DNA of 47,578 nucleotides, taken from assembly GCA_029863385.1 (NCBI GenBank), contig JAOTVU010000019.1, forward strand, positions 1 to 47,578, written 5' to 3'. Below the pieces are notes generated by a model. The model was given only the letters and a program-made list of their open reading frames with translations. It did not search any database and was not told where the DNA came from. How positions within the stretch are numbered: the stretch's first letter is position 1; the number at the start of each line of letters is the position of its first letter. Shown here piece after piece: positions 25,648 through 41,789 of this stretch. The position numbers and the translations under genes were made by a program. This DNA is from Acidimicrobiia bacterium (GTDB lineage Bacteria; Actinomycetota; Acidimicrobiia; Acidimicrobiales; SZUA-35).

Positions 25648-25687
25648 CCGACCTCCGGGCTTCCGGAAGGAGGGAAGCGGAGGTCGG
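25648..25687 (+). terminator. Hairpin after the HTH regulator
   Basis: CCGACCTCCG (25648-25657) pairs perfectly with CGGAGGTCGG (25678-25687); the loop contains an inner palindrome CTTCCGGAAG. It lies 38 bp after the stop and has no U-tract. Confidence 0.55.
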
Positions 25688-25696
25688 AGTGGAGTG

Positions 25697-25757
25697 GCGC
25701 CGAGCGACGTTGAGATGCGGCGAGGTGGCGCAACAGCTTCAATCGATCGCTCGGCGC
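25697..25757. repeat. Perfect 11-bp inverted repeat in the 523-bp gene-free region
   Basis: GCGCCGAGCGA (25697-25707) and TCGCTCGGCGC (25747-25757) are exact reverse complements around 39 nt, with further partial pairing inside (CGTTGAG with CTTCAATCG). The rest of the gap 25610-26132 is more AT-rich than the flanks, has no frame with coding character and no recognisable element remnant. A structured RNA or a second terminator are both possible. Confidence 0.5.
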
Positions 25758-26119
25758 TCCCGGGCAGAGCCACGGGTATCACTCCGAACATAGCAAAGTG
25801 CCTCAAACACGTGACCCGCCGGAGGGAACAGAAAGCATCCGATGGTTCAACTGCTACCCGGACAACGCTACCCAACCGGCGGTGAGCCCCGGACCAACAA
25901 AGTGCAAGCATTTGGTTAGCTGTCGTCCGAGCCCCCGCCAACGGTGCGATTGCACGACCCCACCGCCACATGCCATCGAGAACCCGGCGAGTATCGATCC
26001 GAATGTCGAAGCAACGACAAATACCTTGTGGGAGAAGTCCTCTGAATTCCAACCTTTCCATGCCGAGAGAACTGGGCAGGTTGCCCACCATGCGAACACC
26101 CGGTGGGTTCGGGAACGAG

Positions 26120-26125
26120 TAGACT
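26120..26125 (+). promoter_or_regulatory. Candidate -10 (TAGACT), leaderless start of wzt
   Basis: TAGACT, 7 nt, then the ATG at 26133; no -35 match at normal spacing and no ribosome site. Confidence 0.45.
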
Positions 26126-26132
26126 GACAAGA

Positions 26133-27521
26133 ATGCAACCGGCCGCCGCCAATCACGGTTTCCCCCTCGCTCCCAGGCAACCCGCCTCTCGGGAGCACGC
26201 AACCGGCTTCCTATCAAAAAACAGGCCTGTCGAGACCGCCGATGACGGACGGAACCCACCGGTTGCCGTATCCGTGAGGAACGTGGGCAAGACGTTCCGA
26301 GGCGGCACCTCGGACCCCAAGACCCTGAAAGAACGACTGCTGACCAACCTGTCGTCCAATACATCCAAATTTCTGGCTTTGGATGATGTCTCATTTGATA
26401 TTTATCAGGGAGAAACATTCGGGATAATAGGCCACAATGGGTCCGGTAAGAGCACCCTACTCAAGATCATTGCCGGCATCATGCGTCCCACAACCGGAGA
26501 AGTGCTCGTAGCTGGTCGGCTGGCCGCCCTGCTCGAGTTGGGAGCCGGCTTCCATCCCGAGCTCACCGGGGCTGAAAACATCCACCTCAACGGCTCCATC
26601 CTCGGACTGGAGGAGTCCTACGTTGATGAGCTGTTCCAGGACATCGTCGACTTCGCCGAGATCGAGGATTTCATCCACGCCCCGGTCAAGCATTATTCGT
26701 CGGGCATGAGAGCCCGTCTCGGGTTCTCGGTGGCCACCTACCTCGATCCCGACGTCCTCCTGATCGACGAGGTGCTCTCGGTCGGTGACGAGCAGTTTCG
26801 ACGCAAGTGCATGGAGCGGGTCCATCGGTTCCGATCCATGGGCCGCACCATGATCCTGGTCAGCCACAGTGCAAGCACCGTGGCCCAGCTGTGCCAACGC
26901 AGTGCCGTGCTGTCTCACGGCCGGTTGTTGCATGTCGGCGATTCGACCGAGGCCATCGCCATCTACCGGGCCGCCCTGGCGGCTGGACGGCGCAGGCGCG
27001 GTACCGCGGCCACCACCGTCGAGGAGCCGACCGAGCATCGGGCGGTGTCGATCATCGATACCCGGGTGGTGACCGGTGACGACACGGAACCGACGCTGAA
27101 CCCGGGCGACGACGTGACCATCGAGATCAAGCTGGAGGCGTTCGACCAGATCGAAGGCCGTCTGAGACTCGCCGTGAAGTCCGAGGAGGGGACGGTGCTG
27201 ATCAACCAGGCCAGTACGCCGCTGCTGGGCCGCAATCTCGAGTTGGAACCGGGCACCGCAACAGTCACGTTCACCCTCCACTCGGTTCCTCTCCGGGATG
27301 GCACCTATACGGTCGACGCCATTGCCGAGTCGGCCGATGGGCGCACGACCCTGCACCGGGTGGGGAGCGCCTGCGCCTTCCGAATAGTCAGTCGAAATCC
27401 CCATTTGGGGCTGGTTGCCGTCGATCTGTCGTGCCAACTCGGCGACGGATCCGACCCGATCGGCTCATCCTCGGGTCCGACCCGAGATCGGAGCCGGACC
27501 CCACAAGAGGTCGCCCAGTGA
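26133..27521 (+). CDS. wzt: Polysaccharide ABC exporter ATPase with C-terminal cargo domain (Wzt-like)
   Basis: 462 residues. The ABC domain has 'FLALDDVSFDIYQGETFGIIGHNGSGKSTLLKIIAGI' (Walker A), 'LAALLELGAGFHPELTGAENIHLNGSILGL' (Wzt/TagH-specific Q-loop block), signature HYSSGMRARLGFSVA, Walker B 'DVLLIDEVLSVGDEQF' and switch histidine SHS. After a variable linker, residues about 300-430 form a beta-rich Wzt_C-like domain ('PGDDVTIEIKLEAFDQIEGRLRLAVKSEEGTVLINQ'). In E. coli O9a and Klebsiella O12 this domain recognises the chemically capped end of the finished glycan. The first about 50 residues are nonconserved. The 5' part of the gene is visibly more AT-rich than the rest. It overlaps the permease start by GTGA. 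Confidence 0.9.
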   Translation: MQPAAANHGFPLAPRQPASREHATGFLSKNRPVETADDGRNPPVAVSVRNVGKTFRGGTSDPKTLKERLLTNLSSNTSKFLALDDVSFDIYQGETFGIIGHNGSGKSTLLKIIAGIMRPTTGEVLVAGRLAALLELGAGFHPELTGAENIHLNGSILGLEESYVDELFQDIVDFAEIEDFIHAPVKHYSSGMRARLGFSVATYLDPDVLLIDEVLSVGDEQFRRKCMERVHRFRSMGRTMILVSHSASTVAQLCQRSAVLSHGRLLHVGDSTEAIAIYRAALAAGRRRRGTAATTVEEPTEHRAVSIIDTRVVTGDDTEPTLNPGDDVTIEIKLEAFDQIEGRLRLAVKSEEGTVLINQASTPLLGRNLELEPGTATVTFTLHSVPLRDGTYTVDAIAESADGRTTLHRVGSACAFRIVSRNPHLGLVAVDLSCQLGDGSDPIGSSSGPTRDRSRTPQEVAQ

Positions 27522-28441
27522 CCACTACGGCATCACCACCACCAAACGAGCTGCGACCCATCGGCACCAGTCGACCGGCGGCCAGCGCAACTCGCCAGCT
27601 GGCCGAGGTGTGGAACCATCGAAGCCTCCTGCTCACTCTGGCCGGACGCGACGTCAAGTCCCGGCACCGCAACAGCCTCCTCGGCTTCACCTGGAACCTC
27701 CTGAACCCGCTTCTGCAGATGGTGATCTACACGGTGGTGTTCACCTATTTCATGCCCGGGGGAACCCCTATGTTTCCCCTCAAGCTGTTGACCGGCACCG
27801 CCATCTTCAGCCTGTTCACCACCGGCGTCACCAACGGCACCACTTCGGTGACCGGCAACACGGCTCTGGTCTCCAAGATCTGGTTCCCCCGGGAGGTGCT
27901 GCCGGTCGCCGCCATTGTGTCCAATCTGGTCACCTTCGCAAGCCGGATCAGCATCCTGGTCGTGGCTATGATCATCTACCGTCATCCACCGGCCTGGTCC
28001 TTGTTGTGGCTGGCCGTGTGCGCAGTGTTGGTCACCATGGTTCTGGCCACTGGCGCTGCCGTGCTGTTGTCGGCGCTCAATGTCTATTTTCGCGACGTCC
28101 AGCACTTCCTGGACCTGATCCTGCTGGCGCTGTTCTGGTTCACCCCGATCATCTGGAGCTACGGATTCGTGGCCAACGAACTGATCAACCGGTTCGGTCC
28201 CCGCTGGGAGCGTCTGGCGATGTTGAATCCGCTCACGCCCGTCGTAACCGTCTTCGAACGGGTGCTCTACAATCCAGCCGCCCTACCGCCGGACGGGCAG
28301 CACCAGTTCGAACTGATCCTGCGACCCACGAGCTGGCATCTCCAGAACCTGGGCTACTCGCTCGTCGTCGGCCTGGTCCTCCTCTACATCGGGCTGCGGG
28401 TGTTCTCCCGACTTGAAGGCTCGTTCGTCGAAAACCTCTAG
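27518..28441 (+). CDS. wzm: Polysaccharide ABC exporter permease (Wzm/TagG-like)
   Basis: 307 residues of the ABC-2 family. The N-terminal motif 'LAGRDVKSRHRNSLLGFTWNLLNPLLQMVIYTVVFTYFM' (cytosolic amphipathic helix then helix 1) is a hallmark of O-antigen and teichoic acid exporters. About six membrane segments follow, including 'ALNVYFRDVQHFLDLILLALFWFTPIIWSY' and a C-terminal 'YSLVVGLVLLYIGLRVFSRLEGSFVENL'. With the upstream ATPase it should move a lipid-linked glycan across the cytoplasmic membrane. The GTG start at 27518 overlaps the wzt stop by 4 bp, so the two are translationally coupled; longer readings would overlap wzt heavily. Confidence 0.92.
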   Translation: MTTTASPPPNELRPIGTSRPAASATRQLAEVWNHRSLLLTLAGRDVKSRHRNSLLGFTWNLLNPLLQMVIYTVVFTYFMPGGTPMFPLKLLTGTAIFSLFTTGVTNGTTSVTGNTALVSKIWFPREVLPVAAIVSNLVTFASRISILVVAMIIYRHPPAWSLLWLAVCAVLVTMVLATGAAVLLSALNVYFRDVQHFLDLILLALFWFTPIIWSYGFVANELINRFGPRWERLAMLNPLTPVVTVFERVLYNPAALPPDGQHQFELILRPTSWHLQNLGYSLVVGLVLLYIGLRVFSRLEGSFVENL

Positions 28442-28457
28442 TCAGCGGCCCACCACC

Positions 28458-31400
28458 ATGACCGATTTCGACCCGTCCCCCGACCTCGACCTTCGAACCG
28501 AACGCCGACTGCTGACCGACCAGATCCGGGAACTGGAGCTTCGGGTGGCCACGAACCACGCCCACTGCGAGACCGCGGCCGCCGAGTTGGAGGCTTTCAG
28601 GAGCCGCCGTCTGGTGAGAGTCTCGACCCGCCTGGCCGACGCTCTGGCCCCCCGGCTCGACCGCCTCGCGCGGGTCATTCCGCTATCCTGGCCCCCGGGG
28701 CGATGGGGGCCGTCGGCCGGACCTCCGCAAGGCACCGATCAACCACCACCCGGCCGGTCCTCGTTTGGGACCCTTGGCCTGGTATCGCCGGCGGAGCTGG
28801 TTGACGAGCTGTCGGCGGTGGCACTGGATCGCCGCCGAGAGTCACTGGTCAGCGTGATCATGCCCACCCACAATCGAGCCCGTCTGATCGGGCGGGCCAT
28901 CGAGTCGGCACTGGAGCAGACCCATGAGAAGCTCCAGCTGATCATCGTCGACGACGGCAGTACCGATGACACCGCTGCGGTGGTGGCTCGCTACCAGGCC
29001 ACCACCGATCGCATCACGATGGTGAACCAGCAGCGGGCCGGCCCGGCCCGAGCCCGAAACCGGGCCTTGGAGCTGGCACGCGGCGACTTCTGCGCCTACC
29101 TCGACAGCGACAACGTGTGGACGCCACGCTTCCTCGAGGTGATGGTCGGGCTTCTGATCGATTCCTCCAGCGCCTGCGGCTACGCCGCTCTGGCCCGCGA
29201 GATCGACGGTAACACGGTGGCGGTGGTCAACGAGCCCTTTGACTGGGGCCGGTGCCGCCAATCCAACCTGGTCGACCTGAACGTACTCGTTCACCGAGCC
29301 GGTCTTCCGGAGGCCCACTTCGACCCGTCGCTGGGTCGTAACGAGGACTGGGATCTGGTCCTGCGCTTGGCCCGGCGCCACCAGATGCTGCACGCCCCTT
29401 TCATCGGCTGCCGCTATCGTGACGACAACTCGACCGACCGGGTTTCGGTCACCGGGCTCAACGTCTTCACCAGAATCGTGCGGGCCAAACACCCGGCCGA
29501 CGGAGGGCCAACGTTGGCTACCGACATGGTGGCGGCCTCGCTGCCGCTCTCCGTATCGATCCGGGTGGCCGCACCTTTCGCCGACCGGCTCGAATGGGGT
29601 GATCACCATCTGGCCAATGCGATGGCTCGATCGCTGGCCGGACTCGGACACCGGGCCGTGGTCCGCTACCGGGACTCGCTGCTTTCGGCCGGGGATGAGG
29701 ATGTCAACATCGTGCTACGAGGAGCCGTCCCCTTTGCCCCAAGACCGTGGGCGGTCAACGTCCTGTGGATCATCTGCGACCCCGAGCAGGTGGAGCCCTC
29801 CGAGCTCCAGTCGTTCGATCTGGTTCGGGTTGCCTCGGCGTCCTACGCCGCCCTGCTGAACTGTGTGCCCGGCATCTCTGCTCGCCCGCTACTCCAGGCC
29901 TCAGGGTTCACGCCACCCGAGCAACGCCGCCCGTTGCCGTCGTCGAACTCGGACTTCGAAGCCGACGACTGGAAGTCCTGTGTGGACGGTCGGGTCCTGT
30001 TCGTCGGAAACAGCCGCGGTGATCATCGTCCGCTGATCGACATGGCGGTGGCGGTCGGATTGAATCCCGTCGTCGTTGGATCGGGCTGGGACGGCACCAC
30101 GGTAGCGCCCCACGTGGTAGCCGACTTCGTCGACAACCGGGATCTACCCTCTCTGTACCGGCGGGCGAGCTGGGTCCTGAACGACCACTGGCCATCCATG
30201 GTCGACTTCGGTATCGTGTCGAACCGCCTCTTCGACGTGCTGGCGGCCGGAGGGATGGCGGTGTCGGACCGGCTGGACGAGCTCGCCACCGTGCTGCCCT
30301 CAGTGGTTCAGGTCGACGGCGAGGAGCGACTGGCCGAGATCGTGACCGGCACCCGCCCCGATCCCCTTCCGTGGACCTCCAGCCTCCACCTCACCGACCG
30401 GATGACCACCCTGATGTCCGACGTGGCCGATTGGGTCATCGGGCAACAGGGACTGCGCTCTGATATCAGCCCGGATGTCGACGATGGTGATGCGACCCGG
30501 TTCAGGTCGACCGAGCGGCCTTCGATTGTCGTGGTGGCACCGGGCTGGAGTGACGGGGCCGATCCCCGCCACCACCTTTGCTTCCGGTCGTTGATCGCCC
30601 CCCTGACCTCCGGGTTGAGCGGACAACGTTTCGACGTCGTCCCGGCCGCCAGTCTGGCGTTGGCGGTCGATCACGACGGCCCGATGGTGGTGTTCGTCAC
30701 TCGACCATCCGACGTGAGCCAACTGTCCGACGGCGCCCGGTGGCCCGATCGGCCGTACGTGTTGGCCACCCACTCGGGTCACGAGTCCGCAGCAACCGTG
30801 GTGGCTGCGACCGAGCACTGGGGCCGACCGCTGGCCCACTGGGAACTGGCCGGCAGTCCTTGCATCGACCCCCGGCTTTGGCGGCGTTACCACCGCCGAT
30901 CAATGCCCCCGCCTGAGCACCAGCGGCAACCTCGGATCATTGAACTGAGCGGGATCGGGAACGGCCGACCGCCCACAGTACTCACCCCCGCGGGCGACGA
31001 CGGCGGCGCAGCGGCGGCACTGATGGGCGACGGTTTGGACCACTACCGGCTCTGTCGGCTGGTCCGAGGCTCAGGGCCATTCGATCTGGCGGTGATCGGC
31101 GGGGCGGTCGACGCTGATCCTGATCGGTCGTCTCTAGTGTATGAAGCACTGGTCGGGCGGGCCCTCGGGTCACTCGTGGTGATCCGATCCGAGACCAACG
31201 GCCAAACAAACGAAGTGACGGGCGAACGCGAAGGCACGGTTGACGAGCTCGGGACTCTTGGGATCGACCCCGCCGATCTCTGGATCATCGAGCACGGGTT
31301 CGGGGAGGGCCTTGTGGAACAACTCAGCGATCGATGGCCGGATCTTCGCTTGCAACGGCGGGCCGACCGTCGGTTCCCGGACGCCGCTTTCTGGCATCGC

Positions 31401-31508
31401 TTCGGTTCACGGGCCGCCGCCGACCGTCTCTTCAGGCAGTGGCCGGAGTGGCCCGCTCCTCGAGATAGCCGTGCTCGGACAGGAAGCGGCGGAGGTTGGT
31501 CTCGATGA
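28458..31508 (+). CDS. Large bimodular glycosyltransferase (GT2 plus CgeB-like GT)
   Basis: 1016 residues. Residues 8-55 are a short charged helical segment. About 130-310 is a GT2 (GT-A) domain: 'SVIMPTHNRARLIGRAIESALEQ', 'LIIVDDGSTDDT' and metal-site DSDN near 217. About 370-640 is a CgeB/DUF3880-like GT-B module: 'DRLEWGDHHLANAMARSLAGLGH', 'ILFVGNSRGDH'-type segment near 516, 'RASWVLNDHWPSMVDFGIVSNRLFDVLAAGG'. Residues about 690-1016 match nothing I recognise but contain Rossmann-like strands ('SIVVVAPGWSDG', 'FDLAVIGGAVDAD'). Two sugar transfers by one protein suggest synthesis of a repeat unit. The ATG at 28458 follows wzm by 16 nt. The last 77 bp overlap the convergent sulfotransferase. 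Confidence 0.85.
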   Translation: MTDFDPSPDLDLRTERRLLTDQIRELELRVATNHAHCETAAAELEAFRSRRLVRVSTRLADALAPRLDRLARVIPLSWPPGRWGPSAGPPQGTDQPPPGRSSFGTLGLVSPAELVDELSAVALDRRRESLVSVIMPTHNRARLIGRAIESALEQTHEKLQLIIVDDGSTDDTAAVVARYQATTDRITMVNQQRAGPARARNRALELARGDFCAYLDSDNVWTPRFLEVMVGLLIDSSSACGYAALAREIDGNTVAVVNEPFDWGRCRQSNLVDLNVLVHRAGLPEAHFDPSLGRNEDWDLVLRLARRHQMLHAPFIGCRYRDDNSTDRVSVTGLNVFTRIVRAKHPADGGPTLATDMVAASLPLSVSIRVAAPFADRLEWGDHHLANAMARSLAGLGHRAVVRYRDSLLSAGDEDVNIVLRGAVPFAPRPWAVNVLWIICDPEQVEPSELQSFDLVRVASASYAALLNCVPGISARPLLQASGFTPPEQRRPLPSSNSDFEADDWKSCVDGRVLFVGNSRGDHRPLIDMAVAVGLNPVVVGSGWDGTTVAPHVVADFVDNRDLPSLYRRASWVLNDHWPSMVDFGIVSNRLFDVLAAGGMAVSDRLDELATVLPSVVQVDGEERLAEIVTGTRPDPLPWTSSLHLTDRMTTLMSDVADWVIGQQGLRSDISPDVDDGDATRFRSTERPSIVVVAPGWSDGADPRHHLCFRSLIAPLTSGLSGQRFDVVPAASLALAVDHDGPMVVFVTRPSDVSQLSDGARWPDRPYVLATHSGHESAATVVAATEHWGRPLAHWELAGSPCIDPRLWRRYHRRSMPPPEHQRQPRIIELSGIGNGRPPTVLTPAGDDGGAAAALMGDGLDHYRLCRLVRGSGPFDLAVIGGAVDADPDRSSLVYEALVGRALGSLVVIRSETNGQTNEVTGEREGTVDELGTLGIDPADLWIIEHGFGEGLVEQLSDRWPDLRLQRRADRRFPDAAFWHRFGSRAAADRLFRQWPEWPAPRDSRARTGSGGGWSR

Positions 31509-32289
31509 ATTCGATCTCGTCGCCGGTCAACTCGTTGGCCCATCCGCCTACTTTGGCGTTGCGGACGAACTGACCCGGCCCCCGCTCGGCCACCGGCACA
31601 TTCTCGTAGGAGTTGGCTTTGATTGCGGCGGCCAGTCGTTCGTCGTCGACTTCGAGCCCGAACACATGACTGAGGTGACGAAGCTGGGATTCGGTGTCGG
31701 CGCGGAGCCGCTCGTAGTGCATCTCATAGAGCTGACCGGGGGCCGCCTGCTCCCGAAGGTCACGCAACTTCACGCCCAGGTTCTGGAAGCGTCCGACAGT
31801 CTGACGGACGATCTGGTTCCGATCGAACTCGGTGGTCAGCCGCTCGGCCATCCAAGATCCCGGTCGACGAGCGTCAATGAGGGAGGCAGTGACATCGCGG
31901 GGATCGCGGATCATGACAATGATCTTGGACTTTGGCATTATCTCGGCGATGAGCGGGGCAACATACGAAGAATTAGGCTCCTTGATCAACAAATAGCCAT
32001 CCTCAGAATGCTCCGGTGAACATCTGGAAATTATGTCATGAAAGAAAGAATTGAGAGCTGGTTGCCAAGCGTTACGTAATGGCGTGGAGAACCAGAACGT
32101 AGGGTCATCAAGACGCAGGGGATCGTTTCGCTCAAGATTGTTGCGGAACGTGACGCAGTGCCCGATTCCCGGCTCGTTCCAAAGGTAGCTGTCAAGCCAA
32201 TCAGCGAGAAGCTTGGCCATCCATGTCGTCCCAGATCTCGGGTGTCCAAAGATCCACAGAATGTCGCTTTCCTGGTATTTTTCTGCCAT
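31432..32289 (-). CDS. Sulfotransferase family protein
   Basis: 285 residues. The PAPS 5'-phosphosulfate loop is 'LWIFGHPRSGTTWMAKLL' (residues 11-28), and the 3'-phosphate-binding segment is 'KIIVMIRDPRDVTASLI'. 'LYEMHYERLRAD' and the terminal 'ELTGDEIEFIETNLRRFLSEHGY' are typical of carbohydrate/aryl sulfotransferase_1 proteins. It would sulfate a glycan or lipid acceptor from PAPS in the cytoplasm. It is the only minus-strand gene of the glycan locus and overlaps the end of the convergent glycosyltransferase by 77 bp. Its first about 400 bp and the gap before it are distinctly AT-rich against the rest of the window, suggesting acquisition from another genome. AGGATGGAG precedes the ATG. 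Confidence 0.88.
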   Translation of the reverse strand: MAEKYQESDILWIFGHPRSGTTWMAKLLADWLDSYLWNEPGIGHCVTFRNNLERNDPLRLDDPTFWFSTPLRNAWQPALNSFFHDIISRCSPEHSEDGYLLIKEPNSSYVAPLIAEIMPKSKIIVMIRDPRDVTASLIDARRPGSWMAERLTTEFDRNQIVRQTVGRFQNLGVKLRDLREQAAPGQLYEMHYERLRADTESQLRHLSHVFGLEVDDERLAAAIKANSYENVPVAERGPGQFVRNAKVGGWANELTGDEIEFIETNLRRFLSEHGYLEERATPATA

Positions 32290-32371
32290 TACTCCATCCT
32301 GGTGAGCCGCGAGATACGATCCAATTACACCGCATTACGTTTCAACGGTATCTTGGGATTGAGCAACGAAC

Positions 32372-34171
32372 ATGCATACTGAGGAGAAAGATTACCCAAA
32401 GACGATGCCGGCTCGTGGCGGACAGTCGACCTCGTCCGTGACGTCGCCGGTCGTCGTTCTAGGACCTCACCGATCGGGAACGAGCGCCCTGGCCGGATGG
32501 TTGGCCGAGTGCGGGCTGTGGCTGGGCGACGTCATTGAGGTCGGCCCCGACAACCCGGCCGGCTATCACGAGAACCGGGCTGTGCTGTCGGCCCACATCG
32601 ACCTGCTCGCTTCGATGCAGCGGGACTGGCAATGTCCGCCCGAGTGGTTCGACGCCTTCTTGTTCGATTTGGAGCCTTTGCGATCAGCGGTCAAGTCGCT
32701 GGCGGGCTGCGGTGACCGGTTGTGGGGAATCAAAGACCCGAGGATGCTGTATCTACTGCCGGCCTGGTGCCATGTCGTTCCGGCCATGACCTTCGTTGGC
32801 ACCTTTCGACACCCCTCGGCCATCGCCGACTCCCTGGTTCGGCGCAACGGGTTCGACCGCCGCTTTGCCCTCGACCTGGCCGAACGCCAGATCGAGCGGC
32901 TGCATGCTCTGTGGTTGCGATATCGGTTTCCACTGATCGAGTTCGGATTGGACAACGACTCGTTCGCACCACGGGTCAGAGCGGTGGCTGAGATGCTGGG
33001 GCTCAACCCGGCAACGGCCAGCGGCTCACCGTTCGACCCAGGGTTGATTCACCATCAATGGTCGGATTCCGAGTTGGTCTCGATGACGGATCAAATGCAA
33101 CCGTCAGCCGCCTACGCGGCCCTGGCCGAGGCGGCCTATGAGCCGCTGACCAGGCCGTCGACGGTGACCGCCGAAGATCTCGCCTCGGTGTTGACCGACC
33201 TTGTGCGCCCCAGACGGGATCGGCTGAGCACCAGGGGTCCCAGCTTCGAGGAGCGCCGCCGGTTGTGCTCCGACCACGCCGCCGAGTTCGCCATCGAAGT
33301 CGCCGCCACCGCCTGCATCACCCCGACCGATATGTCCACCAGGCTTGAGGCTGGCACGGCCACCGGTAATGTCCCGGGAACCCCGATGCAGCCAATCAGC
33401 CATGTCGTGGCCGCAGCCGTGGCCGAGGTGGGAGGCTCCGAGGCGATCGAAGCCGTGCTACAGACATATCGGAGTCAGGTCATGGCCGACGCCATCGCCG
33501 TGTTCGACGGCTTTTTCACCGACGAAGCTCCGTTGCCGGAAGACCGCTGGTGGCCCCGCTCGGCGGTCACCAGCCATCGCACCAGGCCGCCCCACCATAT
33601 CCACGTCGACCAGCTCCGAGCTGCGGCCGCCGTCTCCGGCTGGTACCTGGCCACTGTGGCCGATATCGGCCCCGGTCAGGGAAGAAGATTGGCCAGCTTC
33701 GTGACGAATCCAACTCGCCGTCGGGAACAGCGCACCCACGAAGAGTGGCATCAGATGGTCGCCGAGCGGGACACAACCATTGCCCTACAGGCCGGCCACA
33801 TCGAGCACCGCGACAATCTGCTGGCACAGATCGATGAGCGCCGAGGGGATGAGCAGGCCGAGTTGACTGCTCGACTGGCCGAACAGGCTACCGAGATCGA
33901 GCGGTTGAGCATCGAGCTGGCCGACCTGGACCAGGTCCGACGGGCGGAGTACGAACGATTGCTCGACGACAATCAAGGCCTGCGACACTGGGTCGGCGAA
34001 CTGGCGGCCGAGAAGGACTTTTTGGCGCATCGCCTACACCTCGCAGAACAGCATCACCGGGTGACGTTGCTGTCGCCCCGGCAGGTCCACTTTTTGAAGC
34101 GGGTGATTCCCCGACCGCTGGTCCCGCTGCTCCAGCGTGGGCGGCGGCTCTACCGCCGGGTTCACTCGTGA
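32372..34171 (+). CDS. Sulfotransferase-like protein with C-terminal coiled coil and basic tail
   Basis: 599 residues in three parts. Residues about 25-230 are a P-loop sulfotransferase-like domain: 'VVVLGPHRSGTSALAGWLAE' (27-46), 'DNPAGYHENRAV', 'GIKDPRMLYLLP', 'FVGTFRHPSAIADSLVRRNG'. About 230-450 is a helical region of unknown function. About 455-563 is a long heptad-rich coiled coil, and 564-599 is a strongly basic tail likely to bind membrane lipids. This resembles the layout of E. coli WbdD (capping enzyme, coiled-coil ruler, membrane tail) but with sulfotransferase-like chemistry; that parallel is inference. Start choice is ATG 32372; ATG 32405 is an alternative just before the domain. 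It is divergent from the sulfotransferase and overlaps the next gene by GTGA. Confidence 0.82.
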   Translation: MHTEEKDYPKTMPARGGQSTSSVTSPVVVLGPHRSGTSALAGWLAECGLWLGDVIEVGPDNPAGYHENRAVLSAHIDLLASMQRDWQCPPEWFDAFLFDLEPLRSAVKSLAGCGDRLWGIKDPRMLYLLPAWCHVVPAMTFVGTFRHPSAIADSLVRRNGFDRRFALDLAERQIERLHALWLRYRFPLIEFGLDNDSFAPRVRAVAEMLGLNPATASGSPFDPGLIHHQWSDSELVSMTDQMQPSAAYAALAEAAYEPLTRPSTVTAEDLASVLTDLVRPRRDRLSTRGPSFEERRRLCSDHAAEFAIEVAATACITPTDMSTRLEAGTATGNVPGTPMQPISHVVAAAVAEVGGSEAIEAVLQTYRSQVMADAIAVFDGFFTDEAPLPEDRWWPRSAVTSHRTRPPHHIHVDQLRAAAAVSGWYLATVADIGPGQGRRLASFVTNPTRRREQRTHEEWHQMVAERDTTIALQAGHIEHRDNLLAQIDERRGDEQAELTARLAEQATEIERLSIELADLDQVRRAEYERLLDDNQGLRHWVGELAAEKDFLAHRLHLAEQHHRVTLLSPRQVHFLKRVIPRPLVPLLQRGRRLYRRVHS

Positions 34172-36348
34172 ACGGCCACTTCCGCCCGGTCGACGTCATC
34201 GTCCCGGTCTACAACGCCATCGAAGCCGTCGAGCGCTGTCTGCACAGCGTGCTGGCCAACACTTCTGACGATCCCGACGTTCGCATCGTGGTGGCCGACG
34301 ACGCCAGCCCCGACCCGGAGATGGCCGTCCTCTGCACCCGACTGGCCGATGCTCATCCCCGGCTGACCATCCGCCGCCGCCCGACCAACGTGGGTTTCCC
34401 CGGCAACTGTAACGAGTCGATGGCCGAAGCAAAGGGCGACGTTGTCCTACTGAACAGCGACACGGTGGTCCCGGCGGGATGGCTGGAGCCGCTACGGCGT
34501 CTGGCTCACTCCTCGACCCGAGTGGGCAGTGTGACCCCGCTCACCTCCAACGGCCAGATCTGCAGCGTGCCGGTGTGGCTGACGTCCAACACCTATCCAC
34601 CGTCGATCACGGTGGACGACCTCAATGACGTGGCCCGGGCTGTGGGATACGGCGACTGGATTGAGATTCCGACCGGGGTGGGCTTCTGCCAGTACTTCAC
34701 CCAGCCGGGTCTGCAAGCCGTCGGCCTCTTCGATACTGCCATGTTCGGACGTGGCTACGGCGAGGAGAACGATCTGTGCCTACGCCTGCGCCACCACGGC
34801 TTCGTCAACTTGCTGTGCGACACCGTCTTCGTCCATCACGAGGGCGGGCTGTCATTCGGGGAATCGACGCCGGAGCGGCTGAGGGTCAATCTGGCCAGGC
34901 TGAACGCTCGCTGGCCTGGCTACGACGGCTTCATCGCCCGCTTCATCGATGAAAACCCCCTGGCGGGGGTGCAGGCCCGGTTCGGTTTGGAACTCCTGCG
35001 GCGCATCAAACCGCCCGGGAAATTGCGAATTCTCCAGGTGCTGCACAACCCGATCCGGTCGGGCCATATCGGGGGGACGGAGTTCCATGTCGACGATCTG
35101 GTTTCAGGTAGTGACGAGGACCACGTGATCCTCTCCACCGTCGACGATGTTCCGGTGGTACAACATGGCGATGTAACCGGCCTCAAGCCGTTTCCGATCA
35201 CCAGCACCGCCGTCACGACACACGACTGGATTCGCCCGCTGCTGAGCACCGGGATCGATGTCATTCATGTTCACCACTTGGCCGGACTGGGTTTTCAGCG
35301 GGTTGCGGCCCTTCTCGACGGGGCGTCCCGTTGTGAGATTCCACTTGTGTTCACCGCCCACGACTACTTCGCCCTCTGCCCCGGCATTCAGCTGCGGGAC
35401 GCTGAGTCCGGTGTCGCCTGCCGTTCCGATGTCGGTCAGGCCTGTCCCGGTTGTGACCGGGTAAGCGTCGAACTTGTCGGCGGCCCCCGGGACATCTGGC
35501 GGAACCAGTGGCGGAGTCTGCTGGCCGACTGCACCGTGGTCGCCCCATCCCAGGCGGCCGCCGAGCGCCATCGGGCGGTGTGGGGGTCACTACCCCGGCT
35601 GGAGGTGATACCCCATGGCCTCGAACGCAGCCCGGTTGACCTGAGCGGCTCGACCGATCTGGCCGGCCCAGATGGCGTCAGCCGGTCGATGCCGGTCAAG
35701 ATCGCCGTGATCGGTTACGGAGGTGCTCACAAGGGTGACCGGGAGCTGGCGGCAATCATCGAGCATCTGTCGGGCCGGGGTTTCGAATGGCACCTGTTCG
35801 GCCGGGAGGCCCCGACCCCAACCGCAGACGATCCTGACGGCGGGGCGACTCTGCGGGAAGACGTCGTCCATCACGGTTACTACCAGCGTGATCAAATCAC
35901 CCGCCTGCTGGCCGACGGTTCGTTCACCGCCGCCCTGACCCTACCCAACTGGCCGGAGACCTTCTCGTACACGCTGTCCGAAGCGTGGCTGGCCGGCCTG
36001 TTCGTTTTCGCGTCGGACCAGGGCGCGATCGCCGAGAGGATCGCCGCGACCGGCGCCGGGGTCGTCCTTTCATCAGACGACCCGGCCGAGCGGGCTCGGC
36101 TGATCGCCGAAACCGTGGCCTCACCCGCGGAGATGGCTCGGCTGGCCGCCGCCGCCCGGCGAGCTGGTCGCAATCACCCCACGGTTGGTGCTATGAGCGC
36201 TGCCTACGACCGGCTGTACCGCCGCTTGGCCGCCGAACACGGAAAGCAGGCTCCGGCGACCAGCTCGACGCTGCCGTACCCATGGAGCGCGGATGAGAAG
36301 TCGCAGCTGGTCGGCATGTTCCGGTCGCCGCTGCCGACCGGCGACTGA
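34168..36348 (+). CDS. Bifunctional glycosyltransferase (GT2 fused to GT4)
   Basis: 726 residues. Residues about 5-260 are GT2: 'VDVIVPVYNAIEAVERCLHSVL', 'VVADDASPDPEM', 'NVGFPGNCNESMAEAKGDVVLLNSDT', 'FGRGYGEENDLCLRLRHHG' (acidic base motif EEND). About 290-710 are GT4 (GT-B): 'VLHNPIRSGHIGGTEFHVDDLV', 'IDVIHVHHLAGLGFQRVAALL', 'VFTAHDYFALCPGIQL' with a cysteine cluster (C-x-x-C near 'ACPGCDR'), 'EVIPHGLE', 'LTLPNWPETFSYTLSEAWLAGLFVFASDQGAI'. It probably adds two sugars in succession to the exported glycan. The GTG start overlaps the preceding stop by 4 bp, so it is coupled to the coiled-coil protein. Confidence 0.92.
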   Translation: MNGHFRPVDVIVPVYNAIEAVERCLHSVLANTSDDPDVRIVVADDASPDPEMAVLCTRLADAHPRLTIRRRPTNVGFPGNCNESMAEAKGDVVLLNSDTVVPAGWLEPLRRLAHSSTRVGSVTPLTSNGQICSVPVWLTSNTYPPSITVDDLNDVARAVGYGDWIEIPTGVGFCQYFTQPGLQAVGLFDTAMFGRGYGEENDLCLRLRHHGFVNLLCDTVFVHHEGGLSFGESTPERLRVNLARLNARWPGYDGFIARFIDENPLAGVQARFGLELLRRIKPPGKLRILQVLHNPIRSGHIGGTEFHVDDLVSGSDEDHVILSTVDDVPVVQHGDVTGLKPFPITSTAVTTHDWIRPLLSTGIDVIHVHHLAGLGFQRVAALLDGASRCEIPLVFTAHDYFALCPGIQLRDAESGVACRSDVGQACPGCDRVSVELVGGPRDIWRNQWRSLLADCTVVAPSQAAAERHRAVWGSLPRLEVIPHGLERSPVDLSGSTDLAGPDGVSRSMPVKIAVIGYGGAHKGDRELAAIIEHLSGRGFEWHLFGREAPTPTADDPDGGATLREDVVHHGYYQRDQITRLLADGSFTAALTLPNWPETFSYTLSEAWLAGLFVFASDQGAIAERIAATGAGVVLSSDDPAERARLIAETVASPAEMARLAAAARRAGRNHPTVGAMSAAYDRLYRRLAAEHGKQAPATSSTLPYPWSADEKSQLVGMFRSPLPTGD

Positions 36349-36424
36349 ACGCTCCATCACAGACCCCGGGTCACTGTTACGTCCTCTGAATGCCTGCATT
36401 GCCACTACCCAAAGGAGCTCGATC

Positions 36425-37282
36425 ATGGCCGACAACAAACTCGAGGCTGCGTTCTTCGACCAGCACGACAACCAACTGACACGCTCGGTGGCCTGGTCGG
36501 CCATCCCTTTCTTCCAGTCCCGGCTGCACCAGCGGTTGGACCTGGTGGCCACCGCCACCGCCCACCTGGAACGCACCGAGGATCTTCGAGCTCTGACCTT
36601 GGGCTGCGGCGACATGACCGGCGAGTACGGGCTGCTGCGACGGTTCCCCGTGACCCAGATCGTGGCCTATGACCTGAGCGAGGGACAACGGGCCAACTTC
36701 TACGAGCGGACCTACGACGAGTCGGCCGGCATCGACGTCGACTACCGCATCGGTGACGCCGCCGCCGACACCCTGGGCAGCGAGGAATTCGATCTCGTCT
36801 ACATCCAGCAGTCGTTCCACCACTTCGAGGAGGTGGAGAAGGTCGCGGCCAACATCCGAATGGCTCTACGTCCCGGTGGGGTATTCCTGCTCAACGACTA
36901 CATCGGCACCCCGTTCCTGCAGCGCAGCGAGCGCCAGCGGGCGGCCACCCGCCGCATCTGGCGACATCTCCCCGCCCGTCTCCGGACAGGGGCCAACGGT
37001 GAGGTGTGGGACGACATACTCATCCCGCCGATCGAGAACCTGCCTCCCCACGAGGCGGTTCGCTCCGACGCCATCCTGCCCGCGCTGCGGGAGAACTTCG
37101 ACATCATCGATGAGCACCAGTTCGCCGGGCTGTTGTTTCCCCTGTTCAATGGCTTCGCCCAGAACTACACCGAGGCCGACATGACCTTCGTCCGCTCGAT
37201 GTGGGAGGTCGACGAGTGGATGATCGCCGAGGGAGCCATCGAGCCCAACTTCATTCGGGGCCTGTACCGGGCCAAAGCCTGA
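36425..37282 (+). CDS. SAM-dependent methyltransferase
   Basis: 285 residues with a class I Rossmann methyltransferase core: motif I 'RALTLGCGDMTGEYGLL' (near 55-72), acidic loop 'IVAYDLSEGQRANF', 'YRIGDAAADTLGSEEFDLVYIQQSFHHFEEVEKVAANIRMALRPGGVFLLNDYIG' (motifs II-III; HHFE resembles the HF-E of type 11 enzymes). The C-terminal part 'LPALRENFDIIDEHQFAGLLFPLFNGFAQNY' is common in methyltransferases of glycan loci. It may methylate a sugar or the glycan end. AAAGGAG 8 nt before the ATG at 36425 sets the start; upstream in-frame codons are rejected. The 76-bp gap from the GT gene is the widest in this transcript, and the stop is 6 bp from convergent tadC. Confidence 0.85.
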   Translation: MADNKLEAAFFDQHDNQLTRSVAWSAIPFFQSRLHQRLDLVATATAHLERTEDLRALTLGCGDMTGEYGLLRRFPVTQIVAYDLSEGQRANFYERTYDESAGIDVDYRIGDAAADTLGSEEFDLVYIQQSFHHFEEVEKVAANIRMALRPGGVFLLNDYIGTPFLQRSERQRAATRRIWRHLPARLRTGANGEVWDDILIPPIENLPPHEAVRSDAILPALRENFDIIDEHQFAGLLFPLFNGFAQNYTEADMTFVRSMWEVDEWMIAEGAIEPNFIRGLYRAKA

Positions 37283-37288
37283 GATGGA

Positions 37289-38182
37289 TCAAAGGCCGCT
37301 GCCGAGAATGCGGATCGCCACCGGACCGAGGAGCACGACGAAGAGGGCCGGCAGCATGCACAGCACCATCGGGAACACCAGCTTCACCGGGAGGCGCATG
37401 GCCTGCTCCTCGGAGTGGAGGCGCCGGATCTCCCGCATGTGTTCGCTCTGGACCCGGGCCACCCGGGCCATGGGAACGCCGAGTCCGTCGGCCTGCTTGA
37501 TCGCGGAGACGAACTGGCGGACCTCCTGCGTGCCGGTGCGGGTGGCGATGTCCTCCAACGCCTCGTTGCGGGGCCGGCCGAGCCGAATGGCGTGAAGGGC
37601 GCGGGCGAACTCGTCGACGAGGGGGCCCGACGTGGAGCGGGCGATCTTGTCGACGGCGGAGTTGAAGCCGAGGCCCGCTTCGAGCAGGACGGTGAGCTGG
37701 TCGAGGACGTCGGGTAGGGCGGCGACGATTTCCCGCTGCCGGGCGTCGGCCCGCCGTCGAACGTAGGCGTCGGGGGCGACGAAGCCGACGAAACCGAGCA
37801 GCAATGTCCACAGGAGTCGGGATCGGGGTTCGGCTCCGACCGAGATGGCGAAGCCGCCGACGAGGCCGGCCGTGATCAGCAACGACTTGAGGGCGACGAA
37901 GCCCTCCAGCGGCAGCCGGCCGGCCAGACCGGCGTGAACCAGATTGCGGGTGGTCGAGTCGGCGAAGCCGCCCGGCGTGAGACGGCGGGCCTGACGGGCG
38001 ACGGCGTCGATCACGGGAATCACAACGCGATCCCGAATCGATTCGCCGAGGTAGCTGTCGTGCAGGGCCTTGGGAGCCGTGAGCTCGAAGCGGGCCGCAG
38101 CAGAGCGATCACCGGGCATGAGCGCATACCCGAGGAGCGGGACGGCGAGAACGGCCAACACGCTGGCGACAATGACGGTCAT
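37289..38182 (-). CDS. tadC: Tad pilus inner-membrane platform protein TadC
   Basis: 297 residues of the T2SSF family. N-terminal hydrophobic segment 'MTVIVASVLAVLAVPLLGYAL'; helices 'LKSLLITAGLVGGFAISVG' and 'LLWTLLLGFVGFVAPD'; the cytoplasmic T2SSF core 'REIVAALPDVLDQLTVLLEAGLGFNSAVDKIARSTSGPL' and 'LEDIATRTGTQEVRQFVSAIKQADGLGVPMARV'; last helix 'VLCMLPALFVVLLGPVAIRIL'. With TadB it forms the membrane base on which TadA drives pilin assembly. AGGAGG 6 nt before the ATG gives the start. It is the last gene of the minus-strand tad operon, 27 bp after tadB. Confidence 0.92.
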   Translation of the reverse strand: MTVIVASVLAVLAVPLLGYALMPGDRSAAARFELTAPKALHDSYLGESIRDRVVIPVIDAVARQARRLTPGGFADSTTRNLVHAGLAGRLPLEGFVALKSLLITAGLVGGFAISVGAEPRSRLLWTLLLGFVGFVAPDAYVRRRADARQREIVAALPDVLDQLTVLLEAGLGFNSAVDKIARSTSGPLVDEFARALHAIRLGRPRNEALEDIATRTGTQEVRQFVSAIKQADGLGVPMARVARVQSEHMREIRRLHSEEQAMRLPVKLVFPMVLCMLPALFVVLLGPVAIRILGSGL

Positions 38183-38209
38183 CTGCTGCCTCCTGTCATC
38201 CGCGTGCCT

Positions 38210-39241
38210 CTACAGCACCGCGGCGTTGATCATGCTCCGGATCCACAGCCCGCCAGCGACCAGCATGACCGTGACCAGCCCTGTCATCCAGTACGTCAGC
38301 TGCGTGCCCCAGATTCCGTCGAAGTACTCCGGATTGGTGAGGCCGATGAAGACGGCGAGGCCCGGCGGGAGCACGAAGAGGACGAGGGCGGACATGCGGG
38401 CCTCGGCGGTCAGCGCCGAGACCTGGGCGTTGAGGCGGGCCCGCGCCCGGATCGTCGCCGCAACGTTCTCCAGGACCTCGACCAGGTCGCCGCCCACAGT
38501 GGCGTTGATCTCGATGGCGTCCACCACCCAACGCAGATCGACGCTGTCCATCCGTTCCGAAACGTTCCGGAGCGAATCGGTGAGGCTACCGCTCACCCGG
38601 GACTCGTTGAGCGCTCTGGTCAGTTCGGAACTGATCGGATCCTCGTACTCCTTGGCCACCGTGCCGAGTCCGACGTTCATCGAGTAGCCGACACGAAGGA
38701 CGTTGGCGATCGACGACAGCACGTCGGGTAGAGCGTCCTCGAAAGCGGCCTTCCGGCGGCGGAACCGCTGATCGATCACGATGCGGGGCAACACGACGGC
38801 CAGGAAGGCGCCGACGGCGGCACCGAAGACTCCTCGCCACAGGAAGCCGACGCCGGCGCACAGCAGCACGGCGAAGGCTACGAGCATCACCAGCTCCCCG
38901 ACCTGCAGTCGCAGGCCCGCACGTTCGAGACGTTTGGCCGTGTAGTCCCGGGCGTCGGTTCGCAACAGCCGCTCGATGGCCCGCAGGACGGCGTCACGCA
39001 GGGCGTCGGCCATCGTCGGTTTCGGTATCCCGGCCGCCCGCCCGATACGGGGGGCCGTGGCGCGGGAGCCGGACCGGCTGAAGAGCAGGAACGACAACAC
39101 CACGATGGTGACGGCCACGCAGCCCGTGCCGATCCACAACAGCCAGTCGCCCTCCGTCAGCCCGGGGCGTGGAATGACGGTCACCGATTCCGCCGGCAAC
39201 ACCCGATACGACAACTCGGAGATCGGCCGGGCATAGCTCAT
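38210..39241 (-). CDS. tadB: Tad pilus inner-membrane platform protein TadB
   Basis: 343 residues, T2SSF family. N-terminal helix 'WLLWIGTGCVAVTIVVLSFLLFS', a pair 'LVMLVAFAVLLCAGVGFLW' and 'VFGAAVGAFLAVVLPRIVID', then the core 'AFEDALPDVLSSIANVLRVGYSMNVGLGTVAKEYEDPISSELTRAL' and 'DLRWVVDAIEINATVGGDLVEVLENVAATIRAR', ending in two helices. It is the TadC partner. The ATG at 39241 overlaps the tadA stop as ATGA; the longer open frame upstream lies inside tadA and is not used. Confidence 0.92.
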   Translation of the reverse strand: MSYARPISELSYRVLPAESVTVIPRPGLTEGDWLLWIGTGCVAVTIVVLSFLLFSRSGSRATAPRIGRAAGIPKPTMADALRDAVLRAIERLLRTDARDYTAKRLERAGLRLQVGELVMLVAFAVLLCAGVGFLWRGVFGAAVGAFLAVVLPRIVIDQRFRRRKAAFEDALPDVLSSIANVLRVGYSMNVGLGTVAKEYEDPISSELTRALNESRVSGSLTDSLRNVSERMDSVDLRWVVDAIEINATVGGDLVEVLENVAATIRARARLNAQVSALTAEARMSALVLFVLPPGLAVFIGLTNPEYFDGIWGTQLTYWMTGLVTVMLVAGGLWIRSMINAAVL

Positions 39242-40614
39242 CGCCGAACCTCGGCACCCGGGTCGAAGATCGACTGATCGATCTGGATCGAGTACTTCGC
39301 CATCTTGTCGAGCTTGCGGGGCCGGACACCGGTGGCCCGGAGGGTCTCCTTGCCCGGCCCAAGACCCGGGTCGAAGGTGAAGATCTCGTCGAGTGAGATC
39401 TGATCCCCCTCGAGGCCGATGACCTCGGTGATGCTGGTGACCATGCGTCGACCGTCCCGCAGGCGCTCGAGCTGCACGATCACGTCGATGGCGGCCGCCA
39501 TCTGCTCCCGCACGGCCCGGGCCGGCAGTTCGAATCCGGCGAACATCACCATCGTCTCGAGACGGCTGGTGGCCTCCCGTGGGGCGTTGGCGTGGAGGGT
39601 GGTCAGCGAACCGTCGTGGCCGGTGTTCATGGCCTGGAGCATGTCGAGGGCCTCGGCGCCGCGGCACTCGCCGATCACGATGCGGTCGGGGCGCATTCGG
39701 AGGCTGTTGCGAAGCAGATCCCGGCTGGTGACCTCGCCGGTTCCCTCCAGGTTCGGTGGCCGACACTCGAGCCGGATCAGGTTCCGTTGCCGCAGTTTCA
39801 GCTCGACGGCGTCCTCGATCGTGACGATTCGCTCGCTGTCGGGAATGAAGCTCGACAACATGTTGAGGAAGGTGGTCTTGCCGGTGCCGGTACCGCCGGA
39901 GACGAGGATGTTGAGTTTGCCCTGGACGCAGGCCTGGAGGAACGACACGGCCTGCGGGGTGATGCTCCGGCGGTCGATGAGTTCGCTGGCGGTCAGGCCG
40001 CTCTTCATGAACTTGCGAATGGTGAGCGACGGCCCGTCGACCGCGAGCGGTGGGATCACGGCGTTGACCCGGGAACCGTCGGGCAGACGTGCGTCGACCA
40101 TGGGCGACGTCTCGTCGATCCGACGGCCGACGCTGGTCACGATCCGGCTGATGACCTGGCGGAGGTGGGCGTCGGTCCGGAACCTGATGTCCGACATCGA
40201 GATCATGCCGTCGCGCTCGACGAAGATGGCATCGGTCCCGTTCACCATGACCTCGGTGACGGCGTCGTCCTCCAGCAGTGGTTCGATCGGACCGTAGCCG
40301 AGGATGTCGTTGGTGACCGACGTGATCATCTGCCGCTGTTCACGGCTGTCAAGCGGCAGGTTCTCGTCGCGGATCAGGCGTTCGAGCTCCTCGCCGACTA
40401 GCCGGCGGAGCTCCTCCTGCGACAGGTCGGATTCGCTGGTGGCGGTACCCACCTGGTCGACCAGTTTGATCCGGACCCGGTCGCCGAGGCTGTCGAGAAA
40501 CCGACCGGTCTCGGCGTTGCCGATCGACTTGAGCGGAGCCCGCCGCTCAACCGGCCGGGCGTTGCCGGACGAGGAATCGGAATTGAGGTCGGCGAGAAGC
40601 TTTCCCAGGCTCAT
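39238..40614 (-). CDS. tadA: Tad/Flp pilus assembly ATPase TadA (CpaF)
   Basis: 458 residues of the secretion-superfamily ATPases. The N-terminal domain ends in 'ILGYGPIEPLLEDDAVTEVMVNGTDAIFVERDG'. The C-terminal RecA-like domain has Walker A 'ILVSGGTGTGKTTFLNMLSS', Asp box 'RIVTIEDAVELKL', Walker B-like 'RPDRIVIGECRGAEALDMLQAMNTGHDGSLTTLHAN' with the His box, typical of CpaF rather than PilB or PilT. It hydrolyses ATP to polymerise Flp pilins. ATG 40614 follows the tadZ stop by 2 nt; a GTG at 40629 would overlap tadZ and is less likely. The tail after residue about 400 ('EIFTFDPGLG') is normal. Confidence 0.95.
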   Translation of the reverse strand: MSLGKLLADLNSDSSSGNARPVERRAPLKSIGNAETGRFLDSLGDRVRIKLVDQVGTATSESDLSQEELRRLVGEELERLIRDENLPLDSREQRQMITSVTNDILGYGPIEPLLEDDAVTEVMVNGTDAIFVERDGMISMSDIRFRTDAHLRQVISRIVTSVGRRIDETSPMVDARLPDGSRVNAVIPPLAVDGPSLTIRKFMKSGLTASELIDRRSITPQAVSFLQACVQGKLNILVSGGTGTGKTTFLNMLSSFIPDSERIVTIEDAVELKLRQRNLIRLECRPPNLEGTGEVTSRDLLRNSLRMRPDRIVIGECRGAEALDMLQAMNTGHDGSLTTLHANAPREATSRLETMVMFAGFELPARAVREQMAAAIDVIVQLERLRDGRRMVTSITEVIGLEGDQISLDEIFTFDPGLGPGKETLRATGVRPRKLDKMAKYSIQIDQSIFDPGAEVRR

Positions 40615-40616
40615 GG

Positions 40617-41789
40617 CTACCGGAACCACCCTCGCTCGGTCGACTGGGCCGGTACCCGCGCCCCTCGCAGGGCCACGGCCAGGGCCGCGAACGTGGTGGC
40701 CACCGAACCCCGGGGCCGGGCCTCGAGGTAGGCCGAGCCCTCGTTGGCCGCGGCGGGCAGGTTGCGGTCGTACGGCAGCACGTAGTCGATCCGGCGGCGC
40801 AGGACGGCCTCGACGTCCTCTCTGGTCAGCGAGCTGCGCCGATCCTCCTTGTTGAGGATGACGTGGCGGCGGGCCCGCTGGAAGCCGACGGCGTCGTAGC
40901 CGTCGAGGTGCCGTTCGAGGGTTCGTATCCCGCCGACCTCGGGGGTGGTCACGGCCAGCACCTCGTTGGCGGCGCGGACGGCGGCCACCGTGGCGTCGGA
41001 CGTGCCGGGGCCGGTGTCGATCAGCACGATCCGGAACATGCGGGTCAGTTGGTCGATCAGGTGCTGGACGCCTTCGGGCTCGATGGCCGCCGCCTCGACC
41101 AGCGACGTCGGGGCCGGGAGGACGAGGGCGCCGGAACCGTGGCTCGTCAGGCTGAGTTTGAGGCTCGTCGGGTCGTCGACGACGCCGGAGCCCACGACCG
41201 TCGAGACGTTCGACGCCACCTCCATGCCGAGGCTGTCGGCCACGTCGCCGCCGGTCAGGTCGAGATCGACGACGACCAGTTCGCCCGGCACCTGGGAGGC
41301 GAGAGCGTAGGCCAGGTTGACGGCAACGGTTGTCTTGCCGACACCACCCTTCGGCCCGAGGACCGTTATGACGGTGCCTCGTTCCGGGCGTGCCTCGGCC
41401 CGGGTGCTGGATCGGATGGCTGCCGCCTCGTCGAGCAGCCGAAGCGCCTCCCGTAGCTCCTTGTGGCCCTTCGACGGCGAGACGACATCGCGTACACCGT
41501 GGCTCATCGCTTTGGCGAGGAAGTCCGTCGTCGGCTCACAGACGGCGATGCAGTCGACCTCGGGACGGCTGGTCCGCAGGAACGCAGACGATTCGAGTAC
41601 AACATCGACCTCGATGTCGGGACCGAAGACGATCACGTCGACGCTCAGTGAGGCCAGCCACGACGTCCGATCCTCGGCGGCCATGTCGCTGGTGATCGGA
41701 TCCTCGCGGCGGACATTGGTGTCGGCGGGGGGCTTGTCGACGAATCCCGTCATCGTCCGGTCGCTGCTGATCACGGCAATGGTGCTCAC
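40617..41789 (-). CDS. tadZ: Pilus-localisation ATPase TadZ/CpaE
   Basis: 390 residues. Residues about 1-125 form a degenerate receiver-like domain ('VDVIVFGPDIEVDVVLES', 'HGVRDVVSPSKGHKELREALRLL'). About 135-370 is a MinD/ParA-type ATPase with the deviant Walker A GPKGGVGKTTVAVNLA, 'LVVVDLDLTGGDVADSLGME' and 'FRIVLIDTGPGTSDATVAAVRAANEVLAVTTPE'. TadZ/CpaE proteins position the Tad machine at one place in the cell. The GTG start at 41789 overlaps the rcpC stop by 4 bp. It is followed directly by tadA. Confidence 0.92.
   Translation of the reverse strand: MSTIAVISSDRTMTGFVDKPPADTNVRREDPITSDMAAEDRTSWLASLSVDVIVFGPDIEVDVVLESSAFLRTSRPEVDCIAVCEPTTDFLAKAMSHGVRDVVSPSKGHKELREALRLLDEAAAIRSSTRAEARPERGTVITVLGPKGGVGKTTVAVNLAYALASQVPGELVVVDLDLTGGDVADSLGMEVASNVSTVVGSGVVDDPTSLKLSLTSHGSGALVLPAPTSLVEAAAIEPEGVQHLIDQLTRMFRIVLIDTGPGTSDATVAAVRAANEVLAVTTPEVGGIRTLERHLDGYDAVGFQRARRHVILNKEDRRSSLTREDVEAVLRRRIDYVLPYDRNLPAAANEGSAYLEARPRGSVATTFAALAVALRGARVPAQSTERGWFR

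Follow-up and report, generated by a model that had tools for sequence, protein, structure and literature searches.

The 599-aa protein encoded at positions 32372-34171 of the window (the whole stretch of 47,578 nucleotides analysed here, from an Acidimicrobiia bacterium) is best read, on the grounds of its sequence, its structural model and analogy, as a chain terminator that sulfates an ABC-exported surface glycan and has a coil as its spacer, a variant of the WbdD/WbbB type; we put the probability of this reading at about 0.52. Such a protein would probably cap the finished chain with sulfate and help to set its length, a cap chemistry that has not been described before. Sequence and model agree on a chain composed of a PAPS-dependent sulfotransferase (ST) domain, a methyltransferase-like (MT) middle domain, a single long helix and a basic tail (Table 1). 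The first-pass annotation had recognized an ST domain, a middle region, about 110 residues of helix and a 36-residue basic tail, and this description was borne out by the ORF call, Pfam and AlphaFold2. The AlphaFold2 model (mean pLDDT 78.6, 20 aligned sequences) shows two folded domains, the first of them N-terminal and compact, followed by the helix and two short tail helices. None of the NCBIfam models names this protein, and a Pfam match to IFT20 (20.2 bits versus a cut-off of 27) was taken as an artefact of the coil.

Table 1. Positions of the sulfotransferase-coil protein, its parts and the neighbouring cluster genes (window coordinates; GT, glycosyltransferase)
Feature	Position	Strand	Basis
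ST-MT-coil-basic tail protein, 599 aa, ATG start	32372..34171	+	ORF call, Pfam, AlphaFold2, fold match
PAPS-ST domain, residues 21-253	32432..33130	+	profile and fold matches
P-loop, residues 31-38	32462-32485	+	within PAPS-ST domain
E67	32570-32572	+	within PAPS-ST domain
KDPR, residues 121-124	32732-32743	+	within PAPS-ST domain
R146...S154	32807-32833	+	within PAPS-ST domain
Class-I MT-like middle domain, residues 282-447	33215..33712	+	fold match; homologues; alignment
Single long helix, residues 456-566	33737..34069	+	AlphaFold2
Coiled-coil core, residues 489-530	33836-33961	+	COILS; shuffles
36-residue basic tail, residues 564-599	34061..34168	+	composition; hydrophobic moment
Wzt, ABC ATPase with Wzt_C glycan-binding-type domain	26103..27521	+	Pfam ABC_tran 5.7e-22, Wzt_C 4.8e-15
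Wzm, ABC-2 glycan exporter permease	27431..28441, homology from ~27515	+	Pfam, profile
1031-aa GT2 + GT-B glycosyltransferase	28413..31508	+	Pfam; GT part 31-37% identical to L133-L135
Stand-alone sulfotransferase, 285 aa	31432..32289	-	Pfam 1e-22; 49-50% identical neighbours in L131/L132
GT2-GT4 enzyme, 726 aa	34168..36348	+	Pfam; 4-nt overlap; 47% identical conserved neighbour in L131/L132
Methyltransferase, end of cluster	36293..37282	+	Pfam; pathway membership inferred

By sequence and model, the N-terminal domain belongs to the PAPS-dependent sulfotransferase superfamily (Sulfotransfer_3); sulfate transfer itself is predicted. The Pfam match covers residues 26-183 and barely clears the curated cut-off (E-value 2.9e-6), and the fold comparison of the model aligns residues ~12-253 with solved PAPS sulfotransferases at Z-scores of 11-13 (tick tyrosylprotein sulfotransferase (TPST) 13.1, OLS/CurM domains 11.9-12.2, over ~200 residues). 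A profile built from 14 relatives retrieves tyrosylprotein sulfotransferases by sequence (E-value 2e-8), in an alignment that pairs the P-loop (GxHRSGTS, aligned with GVPRSGTT of TPST1), the KDP motif and the 3'-phosphate Arg...Ser. The common ground with the tyrosylprotein sulfotransferases and the OLS/CurM domains thus consists of the fold and these motifs, whereas identity is only 14-17%, their acceptors are proteins or polyketides, and they carry no coil. R34, E67, K121, P123 and the 3'-phosphate-binding pair R146 and S154 are invariant in 98/98 homologues, and G36 of the P-loop is kept in 97/98. The first-pass annotation had tied its proposal to conservation of the PAPS-binding residues, and on this point the proposal stands. 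In TPST2 and Stf0, catalysis depends on the Lys of the KDP motif and on an acidic residue that follows the P-loop helix, hence we regard K121 and E67 as candidate catalytic residues. An APS kinase gene is present in the host genome, on a different contig from the glycan cluster. That the ST domain is inactive and the protein a structural scaffold, with a methyl cap supplied by the separate methyltransferase encoded at the end of the cluster, we consider highly improbable: methyl is a known kind of cap and the Pfam score of the domain is marginal, but the PAPS-binding and catalytic residues are invariant throughout the homologues, and sulfate-activation genes recurrently adjoin the genes of coil-bearing members.

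The middle region, called unknown in the first-pass annotation, does exist as a separate domain, but its fold can be assigned: residues 289-448 match 3cc8 at a Z-score of 10.5 and other class-I methyltransferases at 9-10. In the full-length model most of its core has pLDDT values of 80-94, with two loops below 50; modelled by itself, the domain reached a pLDDT of 43.8 and that model was set aside, so that the MT assignment is based on the full-length model. None of the seven aligned sequences that have the middle domain contains the SAM-binding GxGxG loop. We infer that it may be a pseudo-methyltransferase that serves as a structural or glycan-holding module.

The helix that follows runs unbroken for 111 residues in the AlphaFold2 model, and COILS (run as a re-implementation) assigns a coiled-coil core with P 1.0. 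A coiled-coil segment this long (42 residues) arises in only 3.4% of shuffled versions of the helix with unchanged composition, therefore the heptad signal exceeds what composition would give. Of the earlier description of about 110 heptad-rich residues, the length of the helix is retained, while the coiled coil is certain for 42 residues only, a point that counts against the terminator reading. The tail contains 9 K/R, 2 H and 0 D/E; its most amphipathic 18-mer (residues 580-597) is matched by 0.9% of shuffles, uncorrected for the 10 windows tried. It can be described as basic and partly amphipathic, with low model confidence in this region. A catalytic domain followed by an extended coiled coil, as revealed by COILS, AlphaFold2 and the shuffles, is the layout of the coil-mounted terminators.

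Coiled coils are strongly enriched in this family: they occur in 37/85 ST-family proteins versus 31/657 similarly sized neighbouring genes (odds ratio 15.6, p 9e-21). On the tree of 98 ST domains the coil label switches 21 times, at least 8 of them on starred branches, which speaks for repeated gain or loss of coils and does not allow a single origin to be asserted. In the Luteimonas terrae member (L145:9995-11491) the coil is built of similar serial stretches (LAAQ.SWSE.AV.ERE.L...) and could therefore lengthen or shorten by whole repeats, so that related strains would offer a natural experiment on a length ruler. In the Lysobacter antarcticus member (L142:9869-11764) the interval between the ST domain and the coil holds a different segment, which reads like a beta-sandwich and, judging from its sequence, possibly binds glycan like the corresponding module of the K. 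pneumoniae O7 terminator.

In the window, the gene lies in a cluster (26103-37282) that encodes, in order, Wzt with the Wzt_C domain, Wzm, the 1031-aa glycosyltransferase, an inverted stand-alone sulfotransferase, the ST-MT-coil protein, the GT2-GT4 enzyme and a methyltransferase, so that both exporter components are found upstream of the ST-MT-coil gene. The translational coupling to the GT2-GT4 gene claimed in the first-pass annotation is real: the TGA stop of the ST-MT-coil gene (34169-34171) lies within the GTGA that contains the GTG start of the GT2-GT4 gene at 34168, an overlap of 4 nt (34168-34171). The GT2-GT4 enzyme is the probable polymerase partner of the ST-MT-coil protein. To the left of the cluster are inositol-type catabolism and transport genes, and on the right it is abutted by a Tad/Flp pilus cluster on the opposite strand (37289-44045). 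Antisense ORFs over wzt-wzm (25579-27437) have no Pfam match and were taken as shadows. Elsewhere in the window (1271-5027) there are long ORFs (481 and 734 aa) with zero Pfam matches, some of them opposed by antisense ORFs of similar length, which makes the coding strand ambiguous. An Rfam search found zero families within positions 20000-40000.

In the tree the protein falls into a clade of seven (SH-aLRT 99) whose members all bear a coil and the MT-like middle domain; the sister group consists of five stand-alone sulfotransferases. Sequence comparison shows that its nearest relatives either belong to the identical gene set or are fused ST-MT-coil-GT proteins. The loci of two clade members (designated L131 and L132; other loci are numbered likewise) keep the three genes for a stand-alone sulfotransferase, an ST-MT-coil protein and a GT2-GT4 enzyme, the last with 47% identity to its counterpart in the window over ~720 residues. 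Since homologues (49-50% identity) of the inverted sulfotransferase, which the first-pass annotation had missed, are encoded directly upstream of the ST-MT-coil gene in both loci, the cassette with two sulfotransferases is conserved. In three further clade members (L133-L135) the ST-MT-coil part is fused to a GT part in proteins of ~1520 residues, and L109/L136 encodes a shorter fusion of this kind. The order ST-coil-GT was found in every coil-GT fusion examined (L133-L135, L109, L126, L068, L058, L143 and L139). As these fusions join the kind of enzyme encoded by the neighbouring gene, and in the same order, they provide good evidence that the coil end and the glycosyltransferase work together.

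A relative from Nitriliruptorales (L148:6326-7699) has kept the RDWTCPP motif and has a basic tail; its P-loop is gone (LVLCGRGTDPATV), and hence it is probably no longer active as a sulfotransferase. Near fused ST-coil-GT genes there are genes for SLH-domain proteins (L133:8523-9869, L134:345-1889, L136:6456-7994), of which two have a GH26 match, and given this proximity the glycan may be attached to a surface resembling an S-layer.

It is conceivable, albeit improbable, that the cassette of two sulfotransferases and the GT2-GT4 enzyme is independent of the neighbouring Wzm-Wzt and sulfates another acceptor, e.g. a glycolipid or a protein-linked oligosaccharide. L131 and L132, where the set lies among unrelated genes and no wzm-wzt is found within ~10 kb, would agree with such independence and count against the terminator reading, the more so as they are two of the nearest relatives; the inversion of one of the sulfotransferase genes in the window and the SLH-domain neighbours of some fused relatives point the same way. 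On the other hand, an ABC exporter is encoded close by in the window, L133, the L109/L136 contig, L115, L067, L142, L143 and L145, and in the nearest fused relative the gene adjoins wzm-wzt and cysDNC together.

In the latter locus (L133), cysD, cysN, cysC, wzm and wzt adjoin the gene of the fused protein; the L109/L136 contig contains cysC-wzm-wzt with overlapping ends, L076 and L100 have cysD and cysN-cysC nearby, and in Hyphomicrobium (L143) cysD, cysN-cysC, wzm and wzt are found beside the gene of an ST-coil-GT2-GT4 protein. Within the class set, sulfate-activation genes were seen beside coil-bearing members in 4 loci, versus ~0.23 expected. The ST-coil genes of Lysobacter antarcticus (L142) and Luteimonas terrae (L145) come immediately after wzm and a wzt that encodes Wzt_C and, by analogy, are in the position where wbdD would stand. 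A wzm gene is present within 20 kb of 13/37 coil-bearing members (0.7 expected). In the first-pass annotation, homologues mainly from genomes without an ABC-type glycan exporter had been named as an outcome that would speak against its reading; the permease was found in 30/30 genomes of the class that encode an ST-coil protein, compared with 276/395 overall (hypergeometric p 1.3e-5, ignoring kinship and genome size). For Wzx-type flippases, 0 were seen near coil-bearing members, which is uninformative, since 0.43 were expected.

Within the ST family, coil-bearing members are no nearer to wzm-wzt than the coil-less ones (about 10/36 versus 10/45 within 10 kb), and the presence of Wzt_C does not differ (17/30 versus 17/24 genomes). 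What does differ is the Wzt encoded near unfused and GT-fused members: it has Wzt_C in 5/6 of the unfused ST-coil loci (the window, L115, L067, L142 and L145; not L060) and a glycan-binding domain in 0/5 of the GT-fused loci (L133, L156, L058 and L143, judged by Pfam; L059, judged by length alone). This contrast has a p-value of 0.015 and comes from few, partly related loci; if it holds, reading of the cap at export goes with the unfused form, as in the window. Such reading is not general, because the Wzt proteins of the GT-fused relatives lack the glycan-binding domain, which, like the equal proximity of coil-less members to wzm-wzt, counts against the terminator reading. The idea of a sulfating chain-length ruler put forward in the first-pass annotation is partly supported: gene order, GT fusions, Wzt_C and the sulfate-activation neighbours fit a capping enzyme, but measurement of the chain by the coil, sulfate as the stop signal and a trimeric state are predictions of that idea, and coil-bearing members are not closer to wzm-wzt.

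The same observations bear on the main rival to this reading, which we regard as less probable, namely that the coil and the tail hold the sulfotransferase in the assembly complex as a decorating enzyme, neither terminator nor ruler, that sulfates repeat units or side sugars during growth. The cassette contains two sulfotransferase genes, which hints at sulfation in more than one place, the GT-fused relatives without a nearby Wzt_C imply that sulfate need not be an export signal, and the coil-less relatives are equally often near wzm-wzt. A decorating role fits less well with the enzyme being always at the coil end away from the glycosyltransferase, as in the known terminators, and with the presence of Wzt_C beside most unfused ST-coil genes.

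The terminator reading draws on known systems, those of E. coli O9a and several Klebsiella serotypes, in which terminator and polymerase are located at opposite ends of the coil and a module of Wzt lets only capped chains through (PMC3482155, PMC11231755). WbdD (E. coli O9a and O8, K. pneumoniae O3 and O5) has an N-terminal capping enzyme, a coil and a C-terminal membrane-binding tail that recruits the polymerase, and its gene adjoins wzm-wzt, with cap reading by Wzt (PMC3482155, PMC11231755); the window protein is predicted to share this arrangement. We found no sequence relation between the two. The N-terminal methyltransferase and kinase that define WbdD are absent from the window protein, in which Pfam finds only Sulfotransfer_3 and an MT-like remnant occupies the middle, and its host is a member of Acidimicrobiia; thus it is not a WbdD, but as far as the layout shows it may work like one. 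The shared order of enzyme, coil and tail, with a different enzyme domain, was correctly noted in the first-pass annotation. WbbB of K. pneumoniae O12 and ORF6 of O7 unite terminator, coil and polymerizing glycosyltransferases in one chain, comparable to L133-L135 and L143 (PMC11231755), but their cap is Kdo or methyl-phosphate, and the form in the window is split between two genes that are translationally coupled. In K. pneumoniae O4, ORF7 (a GT137 Kdo transferase) is likewise a terminator with a new enzyme fold on a coil and an extra pre-coil domain, although it is a glycosyltransferase rather than a sulfotransferase and the extra domain is TPR-like. Among Gram-positive types, WsaE of the Geobacillus stearothermophilus S-layer glycan has an N-terminal capping enzyme fused to glycosyltransferases and a product exported by Wzm-Wzt (PMC2943079); its cap is methyl, and a coil is not described in that review. 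A sulfotransferase acting as chain terminator was not found in the mainly open-access literature searched. Aeromonas salmonicida, with a stand-alone sulfotransferase gene beside wzt and yet an O-antigen without detected sulfate (PMC4483657), counts against the terminator reading.

As a terminator, the ST-MT-coil protein would end chain growth as a subunit of the complex that assembles an ABC-transporter-dependent surface glycan. Its basic tail would bind the inner membrane face, and the C-terminal end of the coil would recruit the coupled GT2-GT4 enzyme (perhaps the 1031-aa glycosyltransferase as well) as polymerase. The coil, bundled as a putative oligomer, would keep the sulfotransferase ~16 nm away, as 111 helical residues extend 0.15 nm each. 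Once the lipid-linked chain is long enough to reach the predicted active site, sulfate from PAPS would be placed on its non-reducing end and growth would stop, whereby the coil would act as a ruler; the C-terminal domain of Wzt would then read the sulfated end, and Wzm-Wzt would export the chain.

The known coil-mounted terminators add methyl, methyl-phosphate or Kdo, and a sulfating one, if true, would add a charged cap chemistry and extend the ruler logic to Actinomycetota. We tentatively suggest, with rather less confidence than for the window protein itself, that sulfate could be a further, widespread signal by which bacterial surface glycans that leave through ABC transporters are terminated and exported. 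Coil-mounted sulfotransferases of Actinomycetota and Pseudomonadota would add it, in some cases supplied by sulfate-activation genes of their own operon, and the glycan-binding domain of Wzt would read it. Lysobacter antarcticus GW1-59 and Luteimonas terrae THG-MD21 are named strains that would allow the length of the coil, the cap and the length of the glycan to be altered and measured. If the reading is true, it would also explain the role of many "sulfotransferase family" proteins that bear long coils.
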